DNA of 64,000 bases from Rhodospirillales bacterium (lineage in GTDB: Bacteria > Pseudomonadota > Alphaproteobacteria > Rhodospirillales > WMHbin7). Below the pieces are notes generated by a model that worked only from the letters and a program-made list of their open reading frames with translations, had not been told where the DNA came from and did not search any database. Made by a program: the position numbers and the translations under genes. Positions within the stretch are counted from its first letter, which is position 1. Each line of letters starts with the position of its first letter. This document shows, piece by piece, positions 45,057-49,450 of this stretch. The stretch is taken from positions 1 through 64,000 of the forward strand of contig JACRPC010000023.1 of assembly GCA_016214125.1 (NCBI GenBank), read 5' to 3'.

Positions 45057-45804
45057 GGTGCTTCTGCTTGGCGGCACCGCCGAGGCGGCCGAACTGGCCG
45101 CCCGATCGGTGCGCGAGTTCGGCGCGGCGCTCGATCTCGTCACCTCCTGGGCCGGGCGGACGCAAGCGGCGCCCGATCTTCCCGGACGGCTGCGCATCGG
45201 CGGCTTCGGCGGCGCCCGCGGTTTGGCCACCTATCTTGCGGGCGAGCGGATCGCGGCGGTCATCGACGCCACCCATCCCTTCGCGGCGCGCATCTCGGCC
45301 CAGGCGCGTCAGGCCTGCGAAAGCGCGGGCGTACCGCTTCTGGCGCTCGAGCGCCCGCCCTGGCCCAAGGAGCCCGGCGATCGCTGGATCGAGGCGGATT
45401 CGCTGGCCGAGGCGGCGCGCCTCCTGCCGAATTTGGGCCGGCGCGCTTTTCTGACCGTGGGGGCGGGGGGCGTGCCGGCCTTCGCCGATGTCCAAGATGT
45501 CTGGTTTTTGGTGCGGCTGCTGGCGATGCCGGACCGGCCTTTGGCGCTGGGGCCGCACGTCGTCGTCATCGGGCGCGGCCCCTTCACGGCGGAAGCCGAG
45601 CGGACGCTGATGGCGGAGCACCGCATCGACATTCTGGTAAGCAAAGCCAGTGGCGGCGCCCCCACCCAGGCCAAGATCGCGGCGGCAAGGGATTTGGGAA
45701 TTCCGGTGCTGCTGATCCGGCGTCCGGCCGAATCCGCCTTGCGCCTCACCGGCGATCAGGTGATGGCGAAACTCAAACCGCTTTTTCCCGAAACTCGTGG
45801 CTGA
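45046..45804 (+). CDS. cobK: precorrin-6A / cobalt-precorrin-6A reductase
   Basis: This NADPH-dependent reductase of 252 residues has the CobK/CbiJ start [15 protein letters not shown], the [10 protein letters not shown] motif and [12 protein letters not shown], and late VSKASGG. It reduces the macrocycle after ring contraction. It is co-transcribed with cbiD (11-nt overlap) and overlaps the convergent cobM by 32 bp. Confidence 0.94.
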
Positions 45805-46534
45805 AATCGCCCGCGTAGAGCCGGCTTTCGGCGAAGGCGCCGGGATCGAGCACTTGGCCCACCAGGATCAGCGCCGTCTTGGTGATGCCGGCCGCCTTGG
45901 CCTTCTCCTGGATGTCCGACAGGGTGCCGGTGACGATGCGCTGATCGGGCCAGCTCGCACGCTCGACGATCGCCACCGGGCCGCCCAGGCCGTAATGCGG
46001 CACCAGCGCCTTCACCACATTGGCGAGATTGGCGGCGGAAAGATGAATGGCCAGCGTCGCCTTGGAGCGCGCCAGCGCTTCGAGCGATTCGCCCTCGGGC
46101 ATCGCTGAGGAGCGGGTGGCGGTGCGGGTGAGGATCACCGTCTGGGCAAGGCCGGGCAAGGTGAGTTCGGTTTCCAGCGCGGCGGCGGCGGCGGCGAAGC
46201 TGGGCACGCCGGGCGTGACGTCGTAGGGGATGCCCAAGGCCTTCAGGCGGCGCATCTGCTCGCCGATGGCGCCGTAAAGCGAGGGATCGCCCGAATGGAC
46301 GCGCGCCACATCGTGCCCCTTGGCGTGGGCATCGTGCATCTCGGCCACGATCTGATCGAGCGTGAGCGGCGCCGTGTCGAGAACGCGGGCGCCTTGGGGC
46401 GCCTCGGCCACCACGGCGGCGGGCACCAGCGAGCCGGCGTACAGCACCACCTGGCAGGCGCGGATCAAATTGAGCCCGCGCACGGTGATCAGATCGGCCG
46501 CTCCCGGCCCGGCGCCGATGAAATGAATGGTCAT
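45773..46534 (-). CDS. cobM: precorrin-4 C11-methyltransferase
   Basis: This 253-residue SAM-dependent tetrapyrrole methylase (CobM/CbiF) adds the C11 methyl. It has [18 protein letters not shown] at the N-terminus, [31 protein letters not shown] and a family segment EGESLEALA. It is the last gene of the minus-strand methylase group, but it is cut off from that group by a GxxExxY cassette and a secreted-protein gene. Confidence 0.95.
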
Positions 46535-46561
46535 GTTTCGCGCCTTAAGGAGAAAGGATTG

Positions 46562-46591
46562 AAACGCAAAGACCGCAAAGAAGGCGCAAAG
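46562..46591. repeat. left inverted repeat of the GxxExxY cassette
   Basis: The 30-nt sequence starting AAACGCAAAGACCGCAAAGA has an inverted partner at 47004-47031 that differs by one substitution and a 2-nt gap. It is itself made of CGCAAAG-type iterations. The adjacent AGGATTG is also mirrored beside the other copy. Confidence 0.75.
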
Positions 46592-46609
46592 ATCGCTGTC
46601 ATCGGCCTC

Positions 46610-46996
46610 TCAGCCTTCCAGCCCCGAAACCACGCGCTTGATGCCATCCTTCATGCGGAGGCAATGGAAGTTCAACACGAAGCCCAATTTGTATCCCCCA
46701 AGACGCAGATAGGTCAAAAGTTGAGTCAGATGCACGGGGTGAATTTTCTCAACCGCCTTAACCTCTAGGACAACTTTATCCTCGATAAGAAGATCAACCC
46801 GAAAGCCCGCCTCGATTTGAATGCTTTCGTAGAGAAGAGGTAGGACGACTTGGCGTTTTACGCCGAGGCCTGCCCTGTCCAATTCGAAAGCGAGGCAAGC
46901 CTCATACGCACTTTCCAGCAATCCCGGCCCGAGCGCCGAATGAACTTTGATCGCACGATCGACGACGATGCGGCTGATGTCGTTTTCGCCCGCCAT
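46610..46996 (-). CDS. GxxExxY family protein (PD-(D/E)XK-like fold)
   Basis: This 128-residue protein has the eponymous G-x-x-E-x-x-Y in GPGLLESAYEACL, then GFRVDLLIEDKVVLEVKAVEKI, a nuclease-like D-x(n)-E-x-K arrangement, and HLTQLLTYLRLGGYKLGFVLNF. Function is unknown; such genes are often solitary and scattered among unrelated bacteria. Here it is bounded by inverted repeats within the cobalamin cluster. It is less GC-rich than neighbouring genes, in keeping with transfer. Confidence 0.9.
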   Translation of the reverse strand: MAGENDISRIVVDRAIKVHSALGPGLLESAYEACLAFELDRAGLGVKRQVVLPLLYESIQIEAGFRVDLLIEDKVVLEVKAVEKIHPVHLTQLLTYLRLGGYKLGFVLNFHCLRMKDGIKRVVSGLEG

Positions 46997-47003
46997 GGCG
47001 CTC

Positions 47004-47031
47004 CTTTGCGCTCTTTGCGGTCTTGGCGTTT
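47004..47031. repeat. right inverted repeat of the GxxExxY cassette
   Basis: Read on the minus strand this begins AAACGCCAAGACCGCAAAGA and mirrors the copy at 46562-46591. It ends 8 nt upstream of the GxxExxY start codon, so it would also be the gene's leader. Confidence 0.75.
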
Positions 47032-47042
47032 ATCCTATCAAT

Positions 47043-47603
47043 TTACTTCCGCGCCGCGCCCTTCAAGATGTCGAGGATCACGCCGGTCGTCTTTTCGATC
47101 AGCACCACGTCGTCGCCGACCACGGCGCGCTCGCGGTCGGCGGCCGGCTTGGCCAGCTTGCCTTCGAGATCGCCGGGCAGGGCCTGCTTGGCCAGTCCGG
47201 GCGGCAGGGTCTGGCGCTTGGCCAGTCCGGGCGGCAATTGCTCCTTTTTCGCCAGGCCGGGTGGCAGGCCGTCGCGGCCATGCTTGCCCGGATGCTTCTG
47301 GTTCGAGCGGTCGTCGTCTTGGGCGCGCTCGCGCCGGCGCTCGGCCTCGCGTTCGGCGCCAGCCTGGTCGCGGCGCGACGCGTCCTGGCCGTCCTTGTGC
47401 TTGGTGTTATCGCGGTCCTCGCCGCGCAGGCGGCGGTAATAGTCGCCGATCGCCTTTTTCTCGGCCGGGGTGAAGACAGCGTCGACGGCCGCCTGGCCTG
47501 CCTTTTTGGCGGCATCCTGGGCGGTGGTCTGGGCCAAGGCGGGCTGGGCCAAGGCGGGCTGGGCCAGAAGCAAACCAAACGCAAGGGCATAAGCAAGACG
47601 CAT
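47043..47603 (-). CDS. secreted repeat protein with LPPGLAK motifs
   Basis: This 186-residue protein has a signal peptide followed by a QPALAQPALAQ duplication (from a 15-bp DNA repeat near 47535-47570). The mature part is very hydrophilic, rich in Arg, Asp and Lys. Three LPPGLAK units recur at roughly ten-residue spacing plus a degenerate LPGDLEG. The C-terminal VVGDDVVLIEKTTGVILDILKG resembles a small RcnB/anti-sigma-like periplasmic domain. Function unknown. AAGGAG precedes the ATG. Confidence 0.78.
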   Translation of the reverse strand: MRLAYALAFGLLLAQPALAQPALAQTTAQDAAKKAGQAAVDAVFTPAEKKAIGDYYRRLRGEDRDNTKHKDGQDASRRDQAGAEREAERRRERAQDDDRSNQKHPGKHGRDGLPPGLAKKEQLPPGLAKRQTLPPGLAKQALPGDLEGKLAKPAADRERAVVGDDVVLIEKTTGVILDILKGAARK

Positions 47604-47644
47604 GGCACACTCCTTCGCTGGGGAGGACGGAAGTCTAACCAAGA

Positions 47645-49450
47645 TCAGCCGTCCTGCCTATGCTTGCCGGCGTAGCCGCGCGGCGTGAAGGTCCAGACGC
47701 GGCCACCCTGCGCCACCCGTTTGGTTTCGCTGTTGCCGATCAGCACCAGGGTCAGCATGTCGGCCTTGTCGGCGTCGAGCTGGGCCAGATCGATCACCGT
47801 CACCGTCTCCTCGGGCCGGCCGAGATTGCGCGCCAGCACCACCGGCGTCGTGGCTGGGCGTTTGGCAAGCAGGACGTCGCGGGCCTCGTTCAACAGCGTG
47901 CGCCGGGTTTTGGAAACCGGATTGTAGAGCGCCAGCGCGAAATCGCCCTCGGCGGCGGCCTTAAGCCGCGCGCGGATCATCGCCACCGGGGTGAGCAGGT
48001 CGGAAAGCGAGATCACCGCGAAATCGTGACCCAAGGGCGCGCCGGCCCGCGCCGCGGCGGCCAGGAGCGCCGAAAGGCCGGGCAGCACGGCGATGTCAAG
48101 CCGCCGCCATTCCGGCCGGGCCTCGCGCTCGATCAGTTCGAAGGCCAGGGTGGCGAGCGCGAAGATGCCGGCATCGCCCGAACAGACCAGGCAGACCGAA
48201 CGCCCCTGGCCCGCCAGATCGAGCGCCTGGCGAACCCGTTCTTCCTCATGGCCCATTTTGCCGTCGAAGCGCTTGCCCTGGGCAAGATCGCCCAGAAGAT
48301 CGAGATAAAGCCCATAGCCGACCAGGGCATCGGCCTCGATCACCGCCCTGGTCACTTCCGGGGTGCGCCAATCCTCGCGGCCGGGCCCGATGCCGATGAT
48401 CCGAAGTTTGCCCTGTGGCGTGCCTTGCAAGGCGGCGTCGATCGGGAGGGCGGCCTTGGCGATGGCGACGGTGGCGCGTTTCGATTTGGTCTTGGCGACG
48501 ATCAGGCGGGCCTCGGGGCCGGCGGCGGCGAGCGCCGCGCCTTCCGATACGCCGTGGCAGCCGATTTCACGAAAGACGATGGCCGACGGGTTGGCCAGCC
48601 GGGGCGCTTCCGATTCCAGCCGGGCCGGCGTGAAAAAGCGCAGCGGAACGCCGAAATGGCGGGCCGCCTCGTGCATCGCCGGCTCGTCGGCCTTGCGATC
48701 GACCGAGAACAGCCCGGCTAGGGCGCCCGCCGCCAGGCCATGACGATCCAACGTGTCTTGGATGAGGCCGATCATCTCGTCGGCCGAAGCGCCGCGCTCG
48801 CAGCCGATGCCCACCGCCAGCACCGGCGGGTGAAGCACCAATTCGTCGGGGCCGGGCGGCGCGGATTGGTCGGTGACGCGCACCGCATAGCGCCCGGCTT
48901 GGCCGAAGCGGGCGGGATCGAGCCAATCGGCCGAACCGGCCTCGACGATCCGGCGCACCAATTCGCCGGCCAACAGGGCGGCGGCGATCGGCTTTGCCAT
49001 TTGGGCGTTGGCGATTCGCCAGCCGGGCGGCGGATCGTCGAGCCCGAAGCCCAGCCGGGTGTCGCCCGAACCGGTGATGGCGGCCCGCCCGCCCAGCCCC
49101 CGGGCAATCGTGCGCGCCAGATCGTTGGCGCCGTGATGGCCGCCCAACAGCGGCACGGCGATCACGCCCTGGTCGTCTTCGGCCACCGCCAGCACCGGCG
49201 GCTCGGCCTGCTTGTCGGCCAGGTGGGGCGCCAAGGCGCGCATCAGGATGCCGCTGGCGCAAAAGCCAAGGATGGCGGTGCCCGACTGGAACAGCCGGCC
49301 CAGATGGGCGGCGGTCTCCGAGAAATGCTCGTCGGCGCCATCGACCCGGCCCTTGAGGCCGTGCAGTCGGGCTTGGGGAAGGAGCGCCTTCACCCGTTGG
49401 GCCAGCTTGGCGCCGTGCGCGTCCAGAGCAATCAAGGCGATCGCGGTCAT
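47645..49450 (-). CDS. cbiG-cobJ: fused cobalt-precorrin-5A hydrolase / precorrin-3B C17-methyltransferase
   Basis: This 601-residue fusion has residues about 1-345 as CbiG (IALIALDAHGAKLA; LGFCASGILMRALAP; LLGGHHGANDLA; VGIGCERGAS), which opens the lactone and releases acetaldehyde. Residues about 348-601 are CobJ/CbiH (LRIIGIGPGREDWRTPEV; VCSGDAGIFALA; VLPGLSALLAAAARAGAPLGHDFA), which contracts the ring and methylates C17. Two consecutive steps of the cobalt-early route are thus on one chain. It begins by ATGA overlap with cobI. Confidence 0.95.
   Translation of the reverse strand: MTAIALIALDAHGAKLAQRVKALLPQARLHGLKGRVDGADEHFSETAAHLGRLFQSGTAILGFCASGILMRALAPHLADKQAEPPVLAVAEDDQGVIAVPLLGGHHGANDLARTIARGLGGRAAITGSGDTRLGFGLDDPPPGWRIANAQMAKPIAAALLAGELVRRIVEAGSADWLDPARFGQAGRYAVRVTDQSAPPGPDELVLHPPVLAVGIGCERGASADEMIGLIQDTLDRHGLAAGALAGLFSVDRKADEPAMHEAARHFGVPLRFFTPARLESEAPRLANPSAIVFREIGCHGVSEGAALAAAGPEARLIVAKTKSKRATVAIAKAALPIDAALQGTPQGKLRIIGIGPGREDWRTPEVTRAVIEADALVGYGLYLDLLGDLAQGKRFDGKMGHEEERVRQALDLAGQGRSVCLVCSGDAGIFALATLAFELIEREARPEWRRLDIAVLPGLSALLAAAARAGAPLGHDFAVISLSDLLTPVAMIRARLKAAAEGDFALALYNPVSKTRRTLLNEARDVLLAKRPATTPVVLARNLGRPEETVTVIDLAQLDADKADMLTLVLIGNSETKRVAQGGRVWTFTPRGYAGKHRQDG

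Follow-up and report, generated by a model that had tools for sequence, protein, structure and literature searches.

The GxxExxY gene that lies among the cobalamin genes of the window (the whole stretch of DNA analysed, 64,000 nucleotides) and the two inverted arms that flank it are established as one heritable unit. Together with gene-less palindromes dispersed through the genomes, gene and arms may constitute an analogue of the REPIN-RAYT system in which a PD-(D/E)XK nuclease resembling RecB, Cas4 and Hjc takes the place of the Y1 transposase, a reading to which we assign a probability of about 0.6. The locus consists of the following features.

Positions 45773 to 46534, minus strand: cobM (precorrin-4 C11-methyltransferase), the downstream neighbour of the cassette.
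Positions 46562 to 46591, plus strand: the arm 3' of the GxxExxY gene, AAACGCAAAGACCGCAAAGAAGGCGCAAAG, with units at 46565, 46574 and 46585 and spacings of 9 and 11.
Positions 46610 to 46996, minus strand: the GxxExxY gene (TIGR04256 and PF13366), encoding a 128-amino-acid protein of predicted PD-(D/E)XK nuclease fold.
Positions 47004 to 47031, minus strand: the arm 5' of the GxxExxY gene, with three units (CGCCAAG, CGCAAAG and CGCAAAG) and spacings of 9 and 9.
Positions 47043 to 47642, minus strand: a CigR-like gene (199 amino acids), the upstream neighbour of the cassette, between cobJ and cobM.
Positions 47645 to 49450, minus strand: a cbiG-cobJ fusion, a single gene, upstream of the CigR-like gene.

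The original prediction had placed a single GxxExxY gene between inverted repeats, and both parts of that description were borne out. The sole gene between the arms matches the profiles TIGR04256 (131.8 bits, cutoff of 35) and PF13366 (132.3 bits, cutoff of 22), with an E value of 1.4e-38 for both. The arms are real and consist of three 7-nt CGCAAAG-type units on each side in mirror orientation: on the plus strand, the 3' arm has CGCAAAG at 46565-46571, 46574-46580 and 46585-46591, and on the minus strand, the 5' arm has CGCCAAG at 47022-47028 and CGCAAAG at 47013-47019 and 47004-47010. A repeat search returned the outer 20 nt of each (46562-46581 and 47012-47031; 95% complementary, 430 nt apart), and both arms run on inward by a third unit. 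The alignment score of the arms was 46, and none of 2,000 resamples of these flanks under a first-order Markov model scored above 37. Mirrored flanks (AGGAT/ATCCT) are present, as is the predicted distance of 18 nt behind the stop codon; on the other side, the innermost unit lies 7 nt before the start codon, rather than 8 nt as first given. This innermost unit of the 5' arm (CGCAAAGGAG) contains, by eye, AAGGAG ahead of the ATG and so resembles a ribosome-binding site. A 16-nt core, CGCAAAGACCGCAAAG, was found once elsewhere in the same genome, at a place with no GxxExxY gene.

The cobalamin setting is also as described, with cobM on one side and cbiG-cobJ beyond the CigR-like gene on the other. 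The CigR-like gene (47043-47642) matches NF040487 with an E value of 9.1e-12 but at 45.5 bits, under the cutoff of 78, and contains repeated LPPGLAK motifs. Genes lying directly 5' of cobM in five relatives (L230, L237, L238, L246 and L254) have a similar C terminus as judged by eye, and the cassette therefore appears to interrupt a CigR-like/cobM junction.

GxxExxY loci were collected from 100 relatives (18 of the 100 genomes were positive), from 398 genomes of the phylum (65 positive), supplemented by 52 separately fetched stretches, and from a scan of a genome collection, from which the best 80 of at least 587 relatives were taken. The last set was selected with GPGLLES-type patterns, and the GPGLLES-type clade is therefore overrepresented. 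By record title, these best 80 of at least 587 comprise Bacteroidota, Cyanobacteria, Acidobacteriota, Chloroflexota, Planctomycetota, Gemmatimonadota, Desulfobacterota, several proteobacterial classes, SAR324 and one Methanosarcinales MAG. The gene and its arms thus occur in about ten phylum-level groups by record title, with contamination of MAGs, the archaeal one included, being possible. One contig titled Rhizobium sp. MAG (L164) resembles the Flavobacterium set in protein, arms and flanks and may represent binning contamination, so that MAG titles need care.

Of 193 loci, 192 gave 198 hits, and removal of 16 hits that were partial, at a contig edge or duplicated left 182 loci. Start codons needed care, as the reading frame can run through the arm and place the start inside the upstream gene. 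Inverted arms (score of ≥28) were present at 129 of the 182 loci, compared to 8 of 907 pseudo-gene positions taken from these loci as controls; 53 loci were below the threshold. The threshold was also reached by 116 of 1,809 mispaired flanks, and by direct repeats at 44 of the 182 loci, because units recur between loci. As the 182 loci are not independent, they were also counted by site: of 110 site clusters, 81 were positive for half or more of their loci; among singleton sites, 65 of 92 had arms.

At these loci the arms are arrays of 7-nt units, approximately CRCNRAG or CRCNRAT/A, which read inward and lie mostly 8 to 12 nt apart, often with AACC as the outer end of the arm. Inward chains of at least three units were found upstream at 105 and downstream at 107 of the 182 loci, compared to 27 and 20 for outward chains and 8 of 488 control segments. 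There were 60 loci at which both arms had a chain and the units were similar; the two arms had equal spacing patterns at 46 of them (shuffled mean of 7.6, maximum of 19) and identical units at 38 (shuffled mean of 6.5, maximum of 14). Pairing within a locus coexists with difference between loci: the genome that contains the window has a second GxxExxY gene (L003), with 8-nt spacing and arms of the ACCACCAAG type (ACCACCAAGACACAAAGGCACAAAG type). The original prediction envisaged CGCAAAG inverted repeats flanking GxxExxY genes generally and took absence of flanking repeats as evidence against it. The survey supported flanking inverted arms as a common feature of the family but not CGCAAAG as a fixed terminal repeat, a candidate that was rejected because the arms of L003 differ in sequence and because array unit and spacing vary with protein clade.

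Many similar palindromes contain no gene. In the genome of the window, there are 39 matches to AACCRCNRAGN{1,3}CRCNRAG (1 match to the reversed-pattern control) and 24 matches to the 10-nt-type arm (reversed-pattern control, 0). In four genomes, 40 stretches contained 54 arm matches, 37 of which had an inverted partner within 320 nt; the 54 include both arms of a palindrome and four matches in the stretch around a GxxExxY gene. The corresponding control, 39 of 261, is inflated because it was drawn from the same repeat-bearing stretches. The paired gene-less examples are 57 to 172 nt long and typically run from AACC to GGTT, and six palindromes fold as hairpins with z scores of −2.4 to −14. Two 62-nt palindromes of this genome (L379 and L380; G000:C4:103944 and G000:C5:30941) have flanks that are alike beyond their AACC/GGTT ends, from which the repeated element seems to be longer than the palindrome in this genome. 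The 24 matches of the 10-nt type (e.g., L001 1500-1680, L014, L015 and L016-L036) are CACGGAT arrays, some of them nested in 9-nt-type arms in outward orientation. Neither GxxExxY protein of this genome is of the GxGF type that accompanies CACGGAT-type arrays elsewhere, and these arrays are possibly orphans of a lost gene.

Palindromes are more abundant in the presence of the gene. Of the 74 genomes of family f66, the 45 with a GxxExxY gene had a median of 11 copies of the 9-nt type, compared to 2 in the 29 without (P = 1.6e-5); the association was weaker after two matches per gene were subtracted (6 versus 2; P = 0.011). Some genomes are rich in repeats without a GxxExxY gene, e.g., one in family f85 (G255; 94% complete), with 60 copies of the 9-nt-type arm and no GxxExxY match. 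Agreement between dispersed copies and the code of the resident gene is mixed. Among the matches listed, spacing was that of the resident gene in 15 of 16 copies in G112, 7 of 7 in G406 and 9 of the first 10 of 39 matches in the genome of the window, and 28 of 30 copies in G378 had the gene's outer spacing of 8. In G270 and G344, the correspondence in this listing was only partial, and in G195, 15 of 17 dispersed matches differed in spacing from the only GxxExxY gene found there.

The relationship between arm code and protein was examined on a tree of 182 proteins, with 136 loci labelled by spacing class, 39 having no chain and 7 conflicting loci left out. The window locus is among these seven, as its two arms differ in spacing (9-9 versus 9-11). 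Spacing class changed 34 times on the tree, compared to a mean of 83.7 and a minimum of 76 in 200 shuffles of the 136 loci, and with one locus per site (84 sites, five draws) there were 25 changes, compared to 51 to 52 after shuffling (minimum of 44). The residue following GxG went with the end of the unit at all 84 sites (L or M with G at 68, F with A or T at 16), and exceptions numbered 2 of 134 over all loci. This association is strong but consists mostly of deep clade structure, and it is not proof of contact. Host ancestry does not account for the code, since only 5 of 26 pairs of paralogues within a genome had the same spacing class. For instance, in the genome of the window, 8-8 arms accompany a GAGLLESV protein beside the 9-spaced window copy with GPGLLESA, 8-8, CACAAAG arms recur with the GAGLLESV proteins of two distant genomes (G231 and G336), and cyanobacterial records include both 10-12 and 8-8 arm types. 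Counting against a code, the nearest protein from another source group had the same spacing class in 57 of 136 cases (chance agreement of 0.185).

The match between arms and protein could come from plain inheritance of neighbouring DNA without recognition, the arms being operators, RNA hairpins or terminators that accompany the gene without ever being touched by the protein. Linkage alone would maintain a correlation between neighbouring DNA and the protein tree, the innermost unit can also serve as a ribosome-binding site, and palindromes that fold as hairpins occupy operon junctions such as trpD-trpC. Nevertheless, in the best arm alignments (loci with a score of ≥32; agreement at unit positions 1 and 3 was imposed), unit positions 2, 5, 6 and 7 agree between arms in 92 to 97% of cases, compared to 75% for position 4 and 81% for spacers. 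Pure stem pairing does not predict this difference, which favours a recognised unit over a purely base-paired stem. Nor does linkage explain why gene-less copies dispersed through the genomes contain units of this kind and are more numerous in the presence of the gene, or why unit end and spacing are tied to the protein across distant hosts. We consider inheritance without recognition to be unlikely.

Comparison of orthologous junctions indicated alternative occupancy. In the sister genus, cobJ and cobM overlap by 4 nt in two genomes (G001 and G002), are separated by an inverted CACCAAG-type array with no gene in a third (G004) and by other sequence, with no arms within 460 nt before cobM, in a fourth (G003). 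In another family, one genome (G026) has at this junction a different GxxExxY gene with ATGGGGATG-type arms, while its congener (G047) is empty there. The trpD-trpC junction was surveyed in 30 genomes of family f66, 23 of them chosen for lack of the gene. Of the 25 that gave TrpC, 10 had an exact ATGA overlap of 4 nt, 2 had short gaps, 4 had gene-less palindromes, 4 bore a gene and 5 could not be parsed; in one of the gene-bearing loci (L327; G139:C40), the GxxExxY gene is broken and both arms are retained. In genus g147, two gene-less forms match the gene-bearing ones in type, and two others belong to the CACAAAG 8-8 type, with the outer flank towards trpC being similar, indicating that the type of palindrome at one site can change. 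At carA-carB, two loci (L038 and L047) have flanks that are 93.3% identical and cassette proteins that are 58% identical, with sharp edges. This is a single case of a sharp cassette difference, with recombination ending near the edges a possible cause. A second candidate (L082/L085) was rejected as a clean cassette swap, as its flanks near the junction also diverge and ordinary recombination explains it.

The original prediction interpreted the locus as a possible mini mobile cassette. Developed fully, this would be a mini transposon, with GxxExxY as the transposase, the arms as its terminal inverted repeats and the gene-less palindromes as its MITEs. Paired arms at both ends, the empty, gene-less and gene-bearing states of trpD-trpC in different genomes, the parallel series at cobJ-cobM (empty in G001 and G002, gene-less in G004, occupied in the window) and the sharp edges at carA-carB all accord with it, and like MITEs and insertion sequences, the system has terminal inverted repeats, gene-less relatives and sites that are empty in relatives. 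The search for empty sites in relatives, which had been proposed, was thus productive, and the relatives do not all hold the gene without repeats at orthologous positions, a pattern that had been named as contradicting the prediction. Unlike these elements, however, GxxExxY has no match to a transposase family, and its sites are stable, with 306 orthologous-site pairs across genera and largest site clusters of 23, 10 and 7 of the 182 loci. Purifying selection is indicated by dN/dS values of 0.03 to 0.28 in the 15 unsaturated pairs of 20 chosen (dS was >1 in several), and there are only 1 to 5 genes, fragments included, per positive genome. Inspection by eye of the listed intact palindromes revealed no target-site duplication; ATGA flanks both sides of several occupied trpD-trpC loci but is needed by both genes. 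Searches with one query protein found GxxExxY in none of 50,697 phage records and 8 of 72,556 plasmid records, and phage or plasmid cargo was rejected as an explanation on this basis. A putative viral contig (L227; IMGVR_UViG_3300032770_000220) contained the only GxxExxY locus in one viral-collection scan, with 9-nt-spaced arms. The part of the original prediction that survives is that gene and arms behave as one unit with alternative occupancy of a junction; free jumping does not, and a mini transposon is quite unlikely. A domesticated enzyme with dispersed palindromes fits better.

The palindromes might instead be REP or TIR elements moved by a Y1 (HUH) transposase, GxxExxY being a passenger between two of them. 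TIRtrons, tyrosine transposases flanked by TIRs and accompanied by dispersed TIR families, appear in excerpts of PMC3733652, and Y1 genes occur in 59 of the 74 genomes of family f66. TIRtrons are also similar to the present system in that long inverted repeats, some of them members of dispersed families, enclose a small enzyme gene, but they use a Y1 transposase, and those excerpts describe no unit code (PMC3733652). Against a Y1 mover, the genome of the window and two others (G406 and G378) have repeats and GxxExxY but no PF01797 (Y1) match at an E value of 0.001; copy number in f66 follows GxxExxY but not, significantly, Y1 (P = 0.18); the GxxExxY association holds inside Y1-negative genomes (8 versus 7 genomes; P = 0.039); and a match in arm code would be unexpected for a passenger. 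Such a mover is very improbable. Chance or base composition can practically be dismissed because, although purine-rich tandem-like strings are easily found in skewed flanks, the same-locus and reversed-pattern controls and the Markov resampling of the window gave far lower values than those observed.

The nuclease-like fold claimed in the original prediction is supported by the predicted structure (pLDDT of 94.7) and by the E, D, ExK and Q residues. Structural neighbours of the model with Z scores of ≥8 were SSO0001 (Z of 9.8 over 99 residues), which we take to be a Cas4, and a restriction-endonuclease-like protein (Z of 8.2). Lower rows included archaeal Hjc (1gef; Z of 7.4) and, beside it, Wolbachia CidB/CinB chains (Z of 7.6 to 7.9), and VIA rows under a Z of 8 may reflect only a common fold. 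A Foldseek search with the model gave no match at an E value of 0.001 or better, a sequence search of the PDB gave no relative at an E value of 1, and the PADLOC match to Cas4 was weak (E value of 0.0065) and limited to residues 57 to 97. All 12 diverse sequences compared and all 48 closer ones (a set partly picked by the GPGLLES motif) retain E28, D68, E78, K80 and Q92, and from this conservation the active site looks intact. The predicted protein thus resembles RecB, Cas4, lambda exonuclease and Hjc in fold and in the E...D...ExK...Q pattern, but unlike these, it has no helicase, CRISPR or resolvase neighbour among the genes identified in the window.

PMC8934634 and PMC12085832 mention GxxExxY, PMC9756366 mentions PF13366/PDDEXK_3, and the terms PDDEXK, palindromic repeat and intergenic occur together in PMC10910872. 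The open-access literature searched contained no assignment of a role to GxxExxY, although this small protein is widespread, and no description of AACCRCNRAG-type intergenic palindromes or arm strings.

Among known systems, REPIN-RAYT offers the closest parallels. As portrayed in excerpts of PMC8049555, its enzyme gene is vertically inherited and linked to the repeats, which are dispersed hairpins, each with two inverted arms around a variable loop; enzyme genes are few per genome and do not spread on plasmids; and repeats are more numerous where the enzyme is present but also occur in genomes that lack it. GxxExxY genes are likewise few per genome, inherited vertically over long periods, linked to repeats and under selection (L038/L047 being an exception), and genomes with GxxExxY contain many hairpins of the same build, scattered and without a gene. 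The repeats are again commoner with the gene and also present without it, and the gene is rare on plasmids. In contrast to the RAYT, a Y1 HUH transposase, GxxExxY has a predicted PD-(D/E)XK nuclease fold (PF13366). Its arms are arrays of a 7-nt unit with clade-associated spacing, and its framework extends over about ten phylum-level groups by title, with one possibly contaminated archaeal MAG. As the defining Y1 transposase is absent (no PF01797 match in the genome of the window at an E value of 0.001), the GxxExxY system is not a member of REPIN-RAYT.

For an analogous partnership with a nuclease, we propose the following mechanism. The unit of gene and arms would belong to a population, within the same genome, of gene-less palindromes built of similar 7-nt units. 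GxxExxY would most likely be a PD-(D/E)XK nuclease that recognises the array, its units lying about one helical turn apart with clade-specific spacing; judged from the sequence comparisons, recognition of the arms by the protein is likely. The nuclease would probably act on pairs of arms, as extruded or single-stranded hairpins, and such action could lead to palindromes being copied or exchanged between intergenic sites. Spread or exchange driven by the nuclease, which presupposes cutting, is plausible, though we would place it slightly below an even chance. The gene itself would be inherited mostly vertically at fixed operon junctions and kept by selection, as RAYTs are with REPINs.

More tentatively, and with less confidence than in any of these steps, we suggest that this is a new repeat-and-enzyme system of bacteria and perhaps archaea. 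A minimal PD-(D/E)XK nuclease would read a spaced-unit code (unit letters plus spacing of 8 to 12 nt) in inverted arms and cut extruded hairpins there, thereby keeping and exchanging families of palindromes between operon junctions, and the code of each clade would define a private population of palindromes in the same genome. The system is held to be new because it fell outside the known systems with which it was compared and because the searches of open-access literature were empty, although a database note beyond those searches may exist.

If this interpretation is true, it would explain a large class of scattered intergenic palindromes (AACCRCNRAG...) and would provide a second, nonhomologous example of a long-term partnership between enzyme and repeat in the style of REPIN-RAYT. 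Being short and having an array code, such a nuclease might also be of use as a DNA-binding module. For the GxxExxY family itself, it would supply a substrate, namely, the family's own arms, and a specificity code that can be tested.
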